Part shown: positions 52,741-64,000 of the stretch, in pieces
How the letters are laid out: each line of letters starts with the position of its first letter
How positions within the stretch are numbered: the stretch's first letter is position 1
Source of the DNA: a bacterium
Lineage (GTDB): Bacteria > UBP4 > UBA4092 > JAOAEQ01
Reading direction: 5' to 3'
DNA length: 64,000 nucleotides
NCBI GenBank assembly: GCA_026416715.1
Contig: JAOAEQ010000002.1
Span: 1 to 64,000, forward strand
Position numbers and translations under genes: made by a program
The notes under the pieces: model-generated
What the model saw: only the letters and a program-made list of their open reading frames with translations
The model's database searches: none
Told to the model about the DNA's origin: nothing

Positions 52741-54180
52741 TCATAATTTCGAATCCCTACTATACACCCAATATTTCCCGAGATGGTCAACTAAATGATA
52801 GTTGGTTCGAATCGCGTTAATCATTTCTTCCGTATATCGTTCTAAATCCGGATTGCGGTTAACATCGAAATAGAGGATAATCAGGTCAAACTTCTGCTGG
52901 TTCAAATCATTGACGACAGGCGTTTGGTCCCATAATTTCTGGCGGGCGAGCGTGCTCATGATAAACGGCTGAAATAATACTGGTCGGTAATTACGAACCA
53001 ACATCGCCGCATCATCACTTACAATCATCCCCATCGTCTGCTGAATATATTTTTCGGTTTCCCGAGCATAGAACCAATCTTTTTTAGTCGGCGTTTCTCC
53101 ATATTCGAATTTATAGGGGATATGGTATATCCAAACCAATTGTACTATAAGCAAAACATTGATTACCATTGGTTTGGAAATCCGAAATTTATTTATACTA
53201 ATCCCAAAGAGGATACTACTCGCAGCGATAAGTTCTAATAAATAATTCACCGCTGACCCGACCTTTCCACAACTTAACGCGACTATGACCGAAAAGGAAA
53301 AATAGAGCGAAAAGAGGATATTGATTTTTTCCCTACCTAGTGCAAATAGTGCAAATAAAACTAACATCAGAAATATCGGATAGAAATAAATAAGGTTTTT
53401 TGCATAGAGCCAGACGGTAAACCACGAAAATGGATTCATATTATATACAACCAAATGCTGATAAAACTCTCCGCTGGTAATCGTGTTTCCAACCAGAAAA
53501 ACAATGATTATTCCTACGAGATATACGAAAACTAACATCCTAGCTTGTTTCTTATCTTTCATAAAAAGATATATTGCGGCGGCAACCGGAGCTGCTACCA
53601 TACTCTGCTTGGTATAAAAAGCGAGAATGAACAATATACAAGGGATTAAAACACCTGATATTTTTGATTTCGAATTGTGAATTTCGAATATACGCCAAAT
53701 AAGATATATTCCAAGCAGAGAGAAGAACAGCGCGAGCATATCTACCCGGTTATACGCTGCCCAACGATAGAAATAATGGGTAGCAAATGGAAACAATGCG
53801 GCGATGAATGCTGGGGTATTCGTATTGGTTATCCTCTTAACGATGAGAAATACTATCAATCCGATTAGGAGTGTAGAGAGAACTGATAAAGTTCGGCCAA
53901 TGGCATGGCTATTCCCAAAAATCCAGGTTAGTGGCACGCAGACCAACTGGAATACCGGTGGATAATTCCCGACGGTATAAGGATAATCGTTCAACGTCGG
54001 ATAAATAGTTTTCCCTTGAGCGAGTAATTTGGTTTGATTTAAGATAAATCCTTCTTCATTATCCAAATCATAGGGATAGATGATATACATGATGCAATGG
54101 TAGAGAAAAAAGAGAAAATAAACTATTAATATACCAATAACAATAGTTGTACCTATTTTCTGTATGATATTTATATTCAT
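52741..54180 (-). CDS. GT39-like multi-spanning membrane glycosyltransferase
   Basis: This 479-residue protein has about ten membrane helices. After the first helix the acidic motif YPYDLDNEEGFILNQTKLLAQGKTIY corresponds to the Asp-Glu catalytic loop of ArnT/PMT-like GT-C enzymes (normally DExxY). GNYPPVFQLVCVPLTWIFG, AIGRTLSVLSTLLIGLIVFLI and RWAAYNRVDMLALFFSLLGIYLIWR follow the usual pattern. These enzymes transfer a sugar from a polyprenyl-phosphate donor to lipid or protein on the outer face of the cytoplasmic membrane. The C-terminal 100 residues form a small soluble domain. Substrate unknown. Confidence 0.75.
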   Translation of the reverse strand: MNINIIQKIGTTIVIGILIVYFLFFLYHCIMYIIYPYDLDNEEGFILNQTKLLAQGKTIYPTLNDYPYTVGNYPPVFQLVCVPLTWIFGNSHAIGRTLSVLSTLLIGLIVFLIVKRITNTNTPAFIAALFPFATHYFYRWAAYNRVDMLALFFSLLGIYLIWRIFEIHNSKSKISGVLIPCILFILAFYTKQSMVAAPVAAAIYLFMKDKKQARMLVFVYLVGIIIVFLVGNTITSGEFYQHLVVYNMNPFSWFTVWLYAKNLIYFYPIFLMLVLFALFALGREKINILFSLYFSFSVIVALSCGKVGSAVNYLLELIAASSILFGISINKFRISKPMVINVLLIVQLVWIYHIPYKFEYGETPTKKDWFYARETEKYIQQTMGMIVSDDAAMLVRNYRPVLFQPFIMSTLARQKLWDQTPVVNDLNQQKFDLIILYFDVNRNPDLERYTEEMINAIRTNYHLVDHLGKYWVYSRDSKL

Positions 54181-61008: not shown

Positions 61009-62133
61009 CTATATATTTTTCCCATTAAATTTCTGGTTGATTTTTCTCGTTATCAATAACAGGAAAAAATTGATGATACCGGATAAGAGAACAACCGACC
61101 GCGCGAGATCCCATTCCTTAATCATAAATGCGATTGCCATCGAAATGAGCAGAACGAGTAACGATGCTTTTGCGATAGCCAAAAATTCATGAAATTCTGC
61201 ACCGACTTTATGTTTCTGATATAATCCATACCAAGCACTAATGATAATCCAGAGCCCAATGATTAATGGTAATGCGTAGAGATAATAGATGAATGGATTG
61301 AGATGTTTGCCGAACAGTTCCGCTAAATATTCTCGAATCCAATATGCTGAAATCCAGGAAATAGCTACGGAAAGAATATCAACCAGAACTAACATTAGAA
61401 CATGCATAATAAATACCATATTTCCAACGAGATATCGGCGCCACATCCGTCGCGGTTCGAGATATAACCGATATAACCATTCTAACCCAGATTGTCGCAT
61501 CCACCGCGGAGCACGCGGGGTTTTCAGTGCATAATATTCCAATAATGCACCAACCCCCCAAGCGACCGGAACATTCAATTCCCGATAATGTTTCGCTAGC
61601 CATTTCTCCTGACGTGGCACCCCGAATCCGACTAGTAAAATATCCGGTTGTTTATTTTTTATATCAGCTATGATACTCTGTTCTTCCGATTCTGTAAAGT
61701 AGCCGTGATAGGTTCCGACTATCTTAAGATTCGGAAACTGTTTTTTTAATTGCTGTGCTGCAGCTTCAGCTACGCCAGGTTCTGACCCGAGAAAATAGAG
61801 TTTATATTGTTTCAATTCACAGAGCTTACATAAATCGGGTAAAAAATCACCTGCATTAACTCGTTCTGGTAATGGGTCATTCGTTAAATGAGAAACCCAA
61901 ACTAATGCCATTCCATCTGCATAGCAGATATCAGAATTTAATATTATTTGTCGATATTCTTCATCGGTGAAGGTTCGATTAACACAATGCGCGTTCAGAT
62001 ACGATATCAAGTGTGGTTTTCTCGAGGCGATAAACTCTTCTAATTTTTGCAGAACTTCCTGGGTAGTAATTTTATCGATATTCAAATCGAATAAATGACA
62101 AACAGAACGCATAGAATGAAATTCCCAATCCAA
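61009..62133 (-). CDS. WecG/TagA/CpsF glycosyltransferase fused to a four-helix membrane domain
   Basis: This 374-residue protein has a complete TagA-type domain at about 10-235: HLISYLNAHCVNRTFTDEEYRQIILNSDICYADGMALVW, LGSEPGVAEAAAQQLKKQFPNLKIVGTYHGYF, LLVGFGVPRQEKWL and the closing RAPRWMRQSGLEWLYRLYLEPRRMWRRY. From 245 to 362 there are four hydrophobic helices, with text (YALPLIIGLWIIISAWYGLYQK, FLAIAKASLLVLLISMAIAFMIKEWDLARSVVLLSGII) resembling the N-terminal membrane part of polyprenyl-phosphate sugar-1-phosphate transferases. Ordinary TagA proteins stop at about 250 residues. It probably adds an N-acetylhexosamine-type sugar to lipid-linked intermediates while membrane-anchored. Confidence 0.82.
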   Translation of the reverse strand: MDWEFHSMRSVCHLFDLNIDKITTQEVLQKLEEFIASRKPHLISYLNAHCVNRTFTDEEYRQIILNSDICYADGMALVWVSHLTNDPLPERVNAGDFLPDLCKLCELKQYKLYFLGSEPGVAEAAAQQLKKQFPNLKIVGTYHGYFTESEEQSIIADIKNKQPDILLVGFGVPRQEKWLAKHYRELNVPVAWGVGALLEYYALKTPRAPRWMRQSGLEWLYRLYLEPRRMWRRYLVGNMVFIMHVLMLVLVDILSVAISWISAYWIREYLAELFGKHLNPFIYYLYALPLIIGLWIIISAWYGLYQKHKVGAEFHEFLAIAKASLLVLLISMAIAFMIKEWDLARSVVLLSGIINFFLLLITRKINQKFNGKNI

Positions 62134-62167: not shown

Positions 62168-63067
62168 TCATTTACCCTGTTTACCGAAGTAACTTTTAAT
62201 ATCGAGATAACAGGAATATATCCCTAAAGCTAAATCTAACAATAATAATGAACTTATTCCGCTTCTTTTGGTATCGCGATAACAGTAAACGAGTCCACGA
62301 GCGATATTCCTACCTAAACTACGAATTAACTTTCTCCCGGTTACAGGCGGGTCTAAATCTACTGCGGTCCATCGCCATCGTGTATATAGAATAGACCGAA
62401 TTGAATCATCCCGCAAATGGGTTACTTTAGCGCGAGGGTCATAAATCAATGAATAGCCGTGTTGATAGAGACGTTGCGATAAATCTAAATCTTCATAATT
62501 CGTCCGATAATTTTCTCGATATCCATTGACCGCAAGTAACGCGGTTCTCCGATAAACACTGTTGCTCCCATACAACCATTTTGGATTATGAATACGGGCG
62601 TCACCCCAATGCTGGGACATATGCGCAATTCGCCACCGGTTCGCAATCCCATGGGTATTCAATTCAACGAGTTTTCCTCCCACTCCAGCAAGTTTTGCGG
62701 AGACAGACGAAGAATTGACAGTATTTGATATAGGTTCGTTAGTAAAGTTTTGCATAAGCGCTGCTAGCCAATCTGGTTCAGCAACACAATCCGCATCTAG
62801 ATTTGCGATATATTCCGAGTCGAGATTCTGCCAAGCAGTGTTGCGTGCGGCAGCAAGTCCGCGATTCACTTTATGCCGGATTAGCTTAACCTGCGGGAAT
62901 TGTGCAACGATATCAATAGTATTATCCGTTGACCCATCGTCAACCACTAAAATAGTTTTAATCGAATAAGTTTGCTGCAGAATACTCTGAAGACACCGTT
63001 CAATATATTTTTCTGCATTATAACAAGGGATGTATAGAGAAACGTCCACAACAGTACTCAATACCAA
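62168..63067 (-). CDS. Glycosyltransferase family 2
   Basis: This 299-residue protein has a GT-A fold: VDVSLYIPCYNAEKYIERCLQSILQQTY, VVDDGSTDNT (nucleotide-sugar-binding Asp), RGLAAARNTAWQNLDSEYIANLDADCVAEP (the DxD-equivalent metal site) and YRENYRTNYEDLDLSQRLYQHGYSL (the catalytic-base region). The C-terminal SIRSILYTRWRWTAVDLDPP is a common ending in rhamnosyl- or N-acetylhexosaminyltransferases of O-antigen clusters. It transfers a sugar to a growing surface glycan in the cytoplasm. Three bases separate it from the upstream GT4 gene. Confidence 0.85.
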   Translation of the reverse strand: MVLSTVVDVSLYIPCYNAEKYIERCLQSILQQTYSIKTILVVDDGSTDNTIDIVAQFPQVKLIRHKVNRGLAAARNTAWQNLDSEYIANLDADCVAEPDWLAALMQNFTNEPISNTVNSSSVSAKLAGVGGKLVELNTHGIANRWRIAHMSQHWGDARIHNPKWLYGSNSVYRRTALLAVNGYRENYRTNYEDLDLSQRLYQHGYSLIYDPRAKVTHLRDDSIRSILYTRWRWTAVDLDPPVTGRKLIRSLGRNIARGLVYCYRDTKRSGISSLLLLDLALGIYSCYLDIKSYFGKQGK

Positions 63068-63070
63068 GTA

Positions 63071-64000
63071 CTAAGTACTAAATTGGTTCGTACTTTGTCC
63101 TTCGTATTTTTTCCTTCCCAGTTCGTATGCGGATAAAAAAGTGTTAGCGATTTTTGTCCAATTATAGATTTGTTCTGCGCGTAACCGCGCTTGTTTCCCT
63201 AATTCTGCCATCGTATCAGGATTATTCAATAGTTCAATGATTCCCCCAGATAAAGCTTTAACATCATTAGGATTAACTAATATTCCAGCATTACCTAGCA
63301 TGTTCGGAATATCTCCTACCCGACTGGCAACAATCGGCTTTCCCATCGCAAGATATTCCGCAATTTTTAAAGGACTTTTCCCGTGGGTAATCTCGTTATC
63401 TTCAAAACACGCTACAGCAATATCCGCAGCAGCGATATATTCCGGGATTGCTTCCTGATGAACATAATCAGTAAAAATCATATGGGGGGTGATCTGCAAT
63501 TTCTCAGCCAATTGCTTTAATTGTGGAAGTTTATCTCCACCGCCAACAATAAGAAATTGCGTGGTAGGGAATTTCTCGAGAACAAGCGGTGCAGCATGCA
63601 CCAATTGGTCAGCATAAGTTCCTAAATCCATTTGACCATGATAGATGATTACAGGTGAACCTAAGTTATATTTTTGTTTTATTCTTGAGCCATCAACTTC
63701 GGGATTAAATAGTGTGATATCCGCACCGACCGGCGCAGCGAAGATTCTATCCGATTTGATGCCATAGCGAACCGCTAGATTCCGAATCATCTCCGTTGAA
63801 ACGGTTATCGTATCAACCAGTTTCGGAATCAGCCATTCATATATGATTAAAGCGAATTTGACTAACTTCGATTGACTCCAGTCCGTAGCAAGCGCTGACT
63901 CGCGGTCATCCCAGTCATAATGAACTGGTTTATCGTAGAGATATGCTGCGAATAGTGCGGGTAATGCCGCATCAGGAAAGCATTTTTGGAAATGAATTAT
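63071..64000 (-). CDS. Glycosyltransferase family 4, 5' end outside window
   Basis: The frame is open without a stop from 63071 to the last base of the window, so 309 residues are seen and the start is missing; an internal ATG at 63788 is not the true start. The upstream text (YDKPVHYDWDDRESAL, IYEWLIPKLVDTITVSTEM) is the end of a GT-B N-terminal domain. The C-terminal domain has PVGADITLFNP, SPVIIYHGQMDLGTYADQLVHAAPLVLEK, LIVGGGDKLPQL and the EITHGKSPLKIAEYLAMGKPIVAS nucleotide-sugar-binding region. It probably transfers a hexose or heptose in the same surface-glycan pathway as the two genes below it. Confidence 0.87.
   Translation of the reverse strand: MIHFQKCFPDAALPALFAAYLYDKPVHYDWDDRESALATDWSQSKLVKFALIIYEWLIPKLVDTITVSTEMIRNLAVRYGIKSDRIFAAPVGADITLFNPEVDGSRIKQKYNLGSPVIIYHGQMDLGTYADQLVHAAPLVLEKFPTTQFLIVGGGDKLPQLKQLAEKLQITPHMIFTDYVHQEAIPEYIAAADIAVACFEDNEITHGKSPLKIAEYLAMGKPIVASRVGDIPNMLGNAGILVNPNDVKALSGGIIELLNNPDTMAELGKQARLRAEQIYNWTKIANTFLSAYELGRKKYEGQSTNQFST

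Follow-up and report, generated by a model that had tools for sequence, protein, structure and literature searches.

Among the described systems closest to the protein studied here is the TagA/TarA enzyme of Thermoanaerobacter italicus (PDB 7mpk and 5wb4) of the WecB/TagA/CpsF family, a peripheral protein whose own chain stops after a C-terminal appendage. The accessible parts of the study on this enzyme (PMC6493773) propose that it alternates between a soluble dimer and a membrane-bound monomer, that the soluble dimer is inactive and that the appendage becomes ordered on the membrane and brings Arg221 into the active site, a mechanism that was derived for this particular TagA and in part from a model; they also propose that Thr37 positions ManNAc. 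The other close systems are the large monotopic phosphoglycosyl transferases (PGTs, here Lg-PGTs; TIGR03025/TIGR03022) such as WbaP (PDB 8t53), polyprenyl-phosphate sugar transferases with an N-terminal four-helix membrane bundle, a cytoplasmic DUF (PF13727, CoA_binding_3) and a catalytic domain (PF02397, Bac_transf). According to PMC10942596, it is unclear what the accessory domains of large PGTs do, and this includes the four-helix bundle. In the same source, PGTs with other fused domains form a named class, Bi-PGT, and one enzyme class outside the PGTs, the PglF/Cap5D-type sugar dehydratases, is reported to have the same bundle, though there bundle plus DUF are retained on a dehydratase.

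The stretch of DNA analysed here (64,000 nucleotides; hereafter the window) encodes on its minus strand a protein that combines a complete TagA/WecG (GT26) glycosyltransferase with a membrane bundle of the Lg-PGT (WbaP) type of around 130 residues, an identification on which sequence profiles, invariant residues and predicted structure agree. The open reading frame of this TagA-TM4 fusion (61009..62133) has 374 codons if read from a TTG, but the ATG at residue 8 (62112; 367 aa) is probably the true start because the Coatesbacteria homologues (L039, L044) begin there. The TagA/WecG part comprises residues 10-238 (61420..62106, minus strand). Its residues 67-234 match PF03808 in full (positions 1-168 of 168; E 5.9e-66; 221.9 bits against a cut-off of 27.4), as anticipated in the preliminary description, which had placed the end of a complete TagA domain at about residue 235. 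The protein also scores 152 bits with TIGR00696 (cut-off 69) and 143.8 bits with the NCBIfam equivalog NF041710 for the ManNAc transferase TarA, the cut-off of which (350) is not reached. Residues 10-207 of the predicted model superpose on chain B of the TagA structure 7mpk with Z 28.4 and an rmsd of 1.1 over 198 aligned residues, showing the GT-E fold, and across these 198 residues, i.e., the whole catalytic domain, the two proteins share 38% identity.

This alignment is ungapped with an offset of 8, and Asp65 (the base), Gln167 and the appendage residues Arg214, Arg221 and Arg224 of T. italicus TagA are all matched in the window protein, by Asp73, Gln175, Arg222, Arg229 and Arg232, respectively. 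Over 28 aligned TagA rows, Asp73 and Arg222 are conserved in all 28, Gln175 and Arg229 in 27 each, and position 232 is Arg or Lys throughout (28/28). The three arginines lie in the C-terminal appendage, residues 204-238 (61420..61524, minus strand), which we assigned from the ungapped 7mpk alignment and residue counts and whose role is taken from the accessible parts of PMC6493773. A donor-binding position differs, with Tyr45 in place of Thr37 in the window protein and likewise in 11/11 fused rows of the alignment; over the 28 TagA rows, the equivalent residue is Tyr in 19, Thr in six, Phe in two and Val in one. Based on this substitution, the sugar added by the window enzyme may be other than ManNAc.

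Unlike T. italicus TagA, the window protein does not end with the appendage but adds four predicted transmembrane helices. In the AlphaFold2 model of the full protein (mean pLDDT 92.5, pTM 0.85), the tail forms four long helices, assigned by DSSP and from hydropathy and all encoded on the minus strand: residues 227-269 (61327..61455), one continuous predicted helix in which the last helix of the appendage runs on into the first transmembrane helix (TMH1), followed by residues 281-301 (helix 2; 61231..61293), 313-337 (helix 3; 61123..61197) and 345-373 (helix 4 and the C-terminal tail; 61015..61101). A separate structure prediction of the bundle alone reached a pLDDT of 90.3. We delimit the Lg-PGT type bundle (TM4) to residues 239-369 (61027..61419, minus strand) based on TIGR03025, hhalign, invariant residues and the comparison with 8t53.

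Several lines of evidence show that this bundle is a true homologue of the Lg-PGT bundle. Residues 250-369 match positions 1-114 of the 445 of TIGR03025 (E 1.5e-8), which cover the N-terminal membrane portion of Lg-PGTs, and for TIGR03023 and TIGR03022, further models of large PGTs, the match of the tail is likewise confined to the first quarter; all three scores are far below the model cut-offs, as expected of a fragment. When the tails of five short fusions, i.e., proteins with TagA and bundle only, were compared by hhalign with eight distant Lg-PGT bundles, the probability of homology was 99.7% (E 2.7e-26), against 0.1 to 3.2% for controls with four stretches from three unrelated membrane proteins; with a PGT of the window's own genome alone it was 97.8%. 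Seven residues (D252, R267, Y284, Y305, F336, R345 and R363) are invariant in 17/17 bundles, ten of which come from PGT genes and two from full fusions that still carry the PGT half. At the structural level, VIA-align 2 placed WbaP (8t53, chain residues 7-143) first for the bundle model with Z 14.1 and an rmsd of 3.1 over 129 residues, ahead of a runner-up entry at Z 8.0; for helical bundles, Z values below about 13 may be due to chance, a zone that the WbaP match exceeds in agreement with the sequence evidence. WbaP chains also ranked top in a profile search of the PDB with the bundle, though with weak E-values (best 0.0019, 9s7s), and Foldseek alone found no significant match for the bundle model in the PDB (best E 1.4).

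The bundle is N-terminal in PGTs, whereas in the window protein it is C-terminal to another enzyme and stands without PF13727 and PF02397. Neither the window protein (Pfam, E up to 1) nor the sequence downstream of its gene gave a match to PF13727, and no PF02397 match was found in the protein or anywhere on its contig; the window protein is not a PGT. This anatomy bears out the preliminary description, according to which the extra 130 or so residues are four helices of the membrane type of polyprenyl-phosphate sugar transferases without the catalytic domain. A membrane-bound dehydratase as source of the bundle was considered and rejected on length only, given that the genome's matches to this family are all in frames of 289-379 aa, which leave no room for bundle plus DUF.

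The fusion gene probably forms an operon with a GT2 glycosyltransferase gene immediately upstream (62168..63067, minus strand; PF00535, E 2.3e-35) and a GT4 glycosyltransferase gene identified by Pfam (63071..64000 and on to around position 64258 of the contig, minus strand), both found in the same order in G001, the other genome of the window phylum. Beyond GT4 lies a gene for a B12-binding radical SAM protein (around 64568-66055 on the contig), and the order of GT2, GT4 and radical SAM genes is also that of G001. On the other side, a convergent gene, presumably a phosphopentomutase, ends around 43 bases from the end of the fusion. Elsewhere in the window, a membrane protein of 479 aa with a PMT_2 (mannosyltransferase-like) match is encoded at 52741-54180. 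B12-binding radical SAM genes were seen beside glycosyltransferase clusters that contain TagA in three genomes (L036 3568-5055, which is past the window end; L038 15328-16836; L212 6452-7987), and the nearest NCBIfam model for the L036 and L038 proteins is HpnJ, far below its cut-off.

The remainder of the genome encodes MraY, a protein strongly matching the UDP-GlcNAc 2-epimerase family (PF02350, E 2.1e-115), two whole Lg-PGTs (contigs C15 and C5) and one WecA-like enzyme whose best NCBIfam hit, TIGR02380, scores 102 bits where 326 would be needed for an assignment, so an acceptor polyprenyl-PP-sugar could possibly be supplied by another enzyme of the cell. Contig C9 carries a GT2-PGT fusion whose catalytic domain comes without bundle or DUF, and contig C42 ends in a PGT fragment of 51 codons. 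The combination of GT2 with a bundle-less PGT catalytic domain was observed at L253 (9842-11503) and L250 (7766-9445), with domains scanned for the window genome; this GT2-PGT fusion adjoins a gene similar to the operon's radical SAM gene, and G001 is alike by position and N-terminal sequence.

The same short fusion is found in relatives, as had been suggested as a check. It occurs in both genomes of the window phylum and has a match in all four genomes of the phylum containing Coatesbacteria (that of G035), three of which encode it completely; the fourth match, in G060, begins at position 224 of the model where its contig runs out and is thus a fusion cut by the contig end. Scanning a GTDB collection with a query spanning the junction revealed 78 loci encoding a relative, of which three (L043, L044 and L045) span both parts, and these are the loci of G001, G062 and G035 rather than additional genomes. 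Of 386 genomes surveyed with the fusion profile, 216 gave some match, and among the matches listed, a stop-free frame extending from TagA through the whole bundle was seen for the short form in the window genome (G000), G001, G035 and G061 and for a full form in G283 and G147.

This full form is a complete TagA-TM-DUF-PGT fusion, and it is encoded by nine of the 14 genomes of the phylum of G147 (G388, G394, G391, G393, G283, G390, G395, G389 and G147); in G392 it is N-terminally incomplete, and in G396, G397 and G398 TagA adjoins a separate PGT. Like the window protein, these full fusions (L142, L143, L167-L173) have TagA followed by the bundle and belong to the same TagA and bundle clade, but they run on into DUF and catalytic PGT for a total of 688-756 aa; the two that were scanned with Pfam (L142, L168) contain PF03808, PF13727 and PF02397. 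We note that in G387 of this phylum, a TagA-PGT fusion is split over two frames near the TagA appendage (L175 1522-2121 and 2126-3577), which may be a sequencing error or a natural split. In family f46 (G045, G192), TagA and Lg-PGT are adjacent genes.

The phylum of G147 has a second paralogue of 537-551 aa with TagA, membrane part and DUF without the PGT catalytic domain (L185 970-2583, L186 1483-3138, L187 1489-3138, L188 1480-3135, L193 1492-3129 and L194 1492-3138). CoA_binding_3 was confirmed by Pfam on L186 and L193, and the paralogue belongs to a different TagA clade, so that it is apparently an independent case of the same kind. Other arrangements came up during these searches: an uncultured Arenicella protein in which TagA leads straight into a small PGT catalytic domain, with neither bundle nor DUF (L078 5386-6849, 487 aa), TagA fused to STAS domains (L160 1483-3111, L087 3377-5065), a GT2 joined to an entire Lg-PGT in G035, a genome of the phylum containing Coatesbacteria (L140 484-2994, 836 aa) and two side-by-side TagA matches in one protein of 483 aa in family f15 (L014 / L162 1477-2928). 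A viral origin was rejected; none of 30 pattern-matching stretches encodes a relative, and partial matches in 15 phage records all stayed below 80% query coverage. A candidate plasmid-borne fusion (Roseateles, match over 87% of the query) turned out to be two separate annotated genes. In the open-licence papers that we searched, no description of a fusion between TagA and an Lg-PGT bundle was found, and we regard the window protein as a new form, a GT26 enzyme with the membrane bundle of an Lg-PGT and no PGT.

In a quick TagA tree of 93 rows, all short and full fusions group together with four unfused TagA proteins (SH-aLRT 92), which leaves room for separate fusion events within this clade. 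A bundle tree of 46 rows, with several long branches, places the window and G001 bundles beside those of full fusions and tandem bundles of family f264 (98/86), followed by the bundles of the Coatesbacteria-containing phylum (92/53) and then a PGT of G079, with the tandem pair of f46 outside. When TagA and bundle were combined (18 rows), short and full fusions fell on one side with a support of 93/97, which is below the tool's star, and a single clade of short fusions gave an AU p of 0.336, i.e., one or two losses of the PGT are both compatible with the data. A recent duplication of a PGT bundle of the own genome was rejected as the source of the fused bundle, because the own PGT is far off in the bundle tree. 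Since other genomes encode complete TagA-TM-DUF-PGT fusions, the bundle is best taken as the remnant of a lost PGT half. Most likely, the window protein would thus descend from a TagA-PGT fusion from which the PGT half disappeared while the anchor stayed, with the full TagA-Lg-PGT fusion as the probable ancestral form. The simplest reading of these trees would be a single fusion and one or two later losses of the PGT half, with a direction of change that we infer.

Pairwise comparisons by the Nei-Gojobori method indicate that the bundle is under purifying selection, with dN/dS around 0.1. For G061 and G060, the bundle has dS 0.33 and dN 0.029; for G035 and G062, dS 1.08 and dN 0.114 (TagA part: dS 1.78 and dN 0.155); and for G035 and G061, dS 1.22 and dN 0.11. 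The remaining pairs are dS-saturated in at least one part, and so is the comparison of window and G001, in which dN is higher for the bundle (0.411) than for TagA (0.343).

On balance we consider it fairly probable that the window protein is a GT26 glycosyltransferase which is permanently anchored in the cytoplasmic membrane by an Lg-PGT bundle and derives from a bifunctional TagA-Lg-PGT ancestor. In this ancestor, the PGT half would have made the first polyprenyl-PP-sugar and the TagA half would have added the second sugar. The lineage of the window would then have lost DUF and catalytic PGT and kept the TagA enzyme with the bundle. The positive-inside pattern and the known topology of PGTs point to an N-in/C-in bundle that would present the TagA domain on the cytoplasmic face, though the charge counts are modest and loop 3, which would lie outside, has two positive charges. 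Since the appendage helix is the start of TMH1 in the model, the appendage would be positioned at the bilayer constantly, and by analogy with T. italicus TagA, this may amount to constitutive activation. The resulting protein would be a membrane-resident second-step transferase with the proposed activity of transferring a sugar to a polyprenyl-PP-sugar, the acceptor presumably coming from a WecA-like enzyme or a separate PGT. In its outcome, this matches the earlier suggestion that the helices would fix a normally peripheral enzyme in the membrane, which is backed by anatomy, predicted structure and conservation.

The bundle might instead have been kept primarily as a docking module, anchoring being secondary. 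Its partner would be the related bundle of a complete Lg-PGT, or some other membrane protein of the pathway, and the pairing would hold the first two glycosyl steps together. We regard this as unlikely, even though the bundle's polar and aromatic residues have stayed invariant with the catalytic domain gone, dN of the bundle does not exceed that of TagA in the three pairs from the Coatesbacteria-containing phylum for which both parts were compared, TagA and PGT genes are adjacent or fused in several lineages, and PGT catalytic domains are present in 12/12 genomes examined. In the accessible parts of PMC10942596, the bundles of the WbaP dimer touch each other through helix 3, but most of the dimer interface is located in the DUF, which the window protein lacks. 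Furthermore, the PGT of the own genome whose bundle comes closest shares just 31% identity, a distant relationship, and lies on the other side of the bundle tree, and between window and G001 conservation is lower in the bundle than in TagA. The broader form of this idea, in which the Lg-PGT bundle is a portable docking module that would pair with a PGT bundle or a flippase and hold steps 1 and 2 in one complex, is similarly tentative.

It is improbable that the bundle is a passive relic, a tolerated and functionless leftover of the lost PGT half, though full fusions exist and the short form resembles their truncation. A leftover of this kind is at odds with the purifying selection on the bundle (dN/dS around 0.09 and 0.11 in the two pairs whose dS could be used, comparable to TagA), with the nearly identical end point of the protein in five genomes of two phyla and with the invariant residues.

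Slightly more doubtful still is the second suggestion of the preliminary description, that the protein is half of a split initiating transferase whose bundle works together in trans with a PGT catalytic half from another gene. The PGT catalytic domain without bundle or DUF on contig C9 (the GT2-PGT fusion) and the fragment at the end of C42 could be seen as candidates for such a partner, but no PGT catalytic domain is found on the contig of the gene, in the neighbouring genes or in the surroundings of the short fusions of relatives. Specifically, a tblastn search for the missing half over the window, the 37 kb of contig that follow it and the loci of four relatives recovered its positive control and no DUF or PGT remnant. 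In the Coatesbacteria-containing phylum (four genomes), every PGT frame has at least 455 aa, sufficient to encode an entire enzyme, leaving no orphan half there, and according to PMC10942596 a small PGT is nothing more than a catalytic core. A frameshift joining two genes in assembly or annotation, for which we found no support beyond the TagA/PGT fusion split between two frames in G387 of another phylum, can be dismissed with near certainty given that separate assemblies of two phyla share the uninterrupted frame and architecture and that no second gene precedes the convergent gene around 43 bases downstream.

Taken as a membrane-anchored GT26 transferase, the window protein bears on the biology of both of its parent families. 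For the PGTs, it presents a bundle kept under selection on the enzyme of the next step with the catalytic domain and the DUF gone, which separates the role of the bundle from PGT catalysis. For TagA, the very segment that was proposed to switch on activity by membrane contact is here joined to a transmembrane helix. Docking between bundles, if true, would give a function to the bundle domain, and this natural fusion in two little-known lineages offers a way to ask what the membrane part of Lg-PGTs does.
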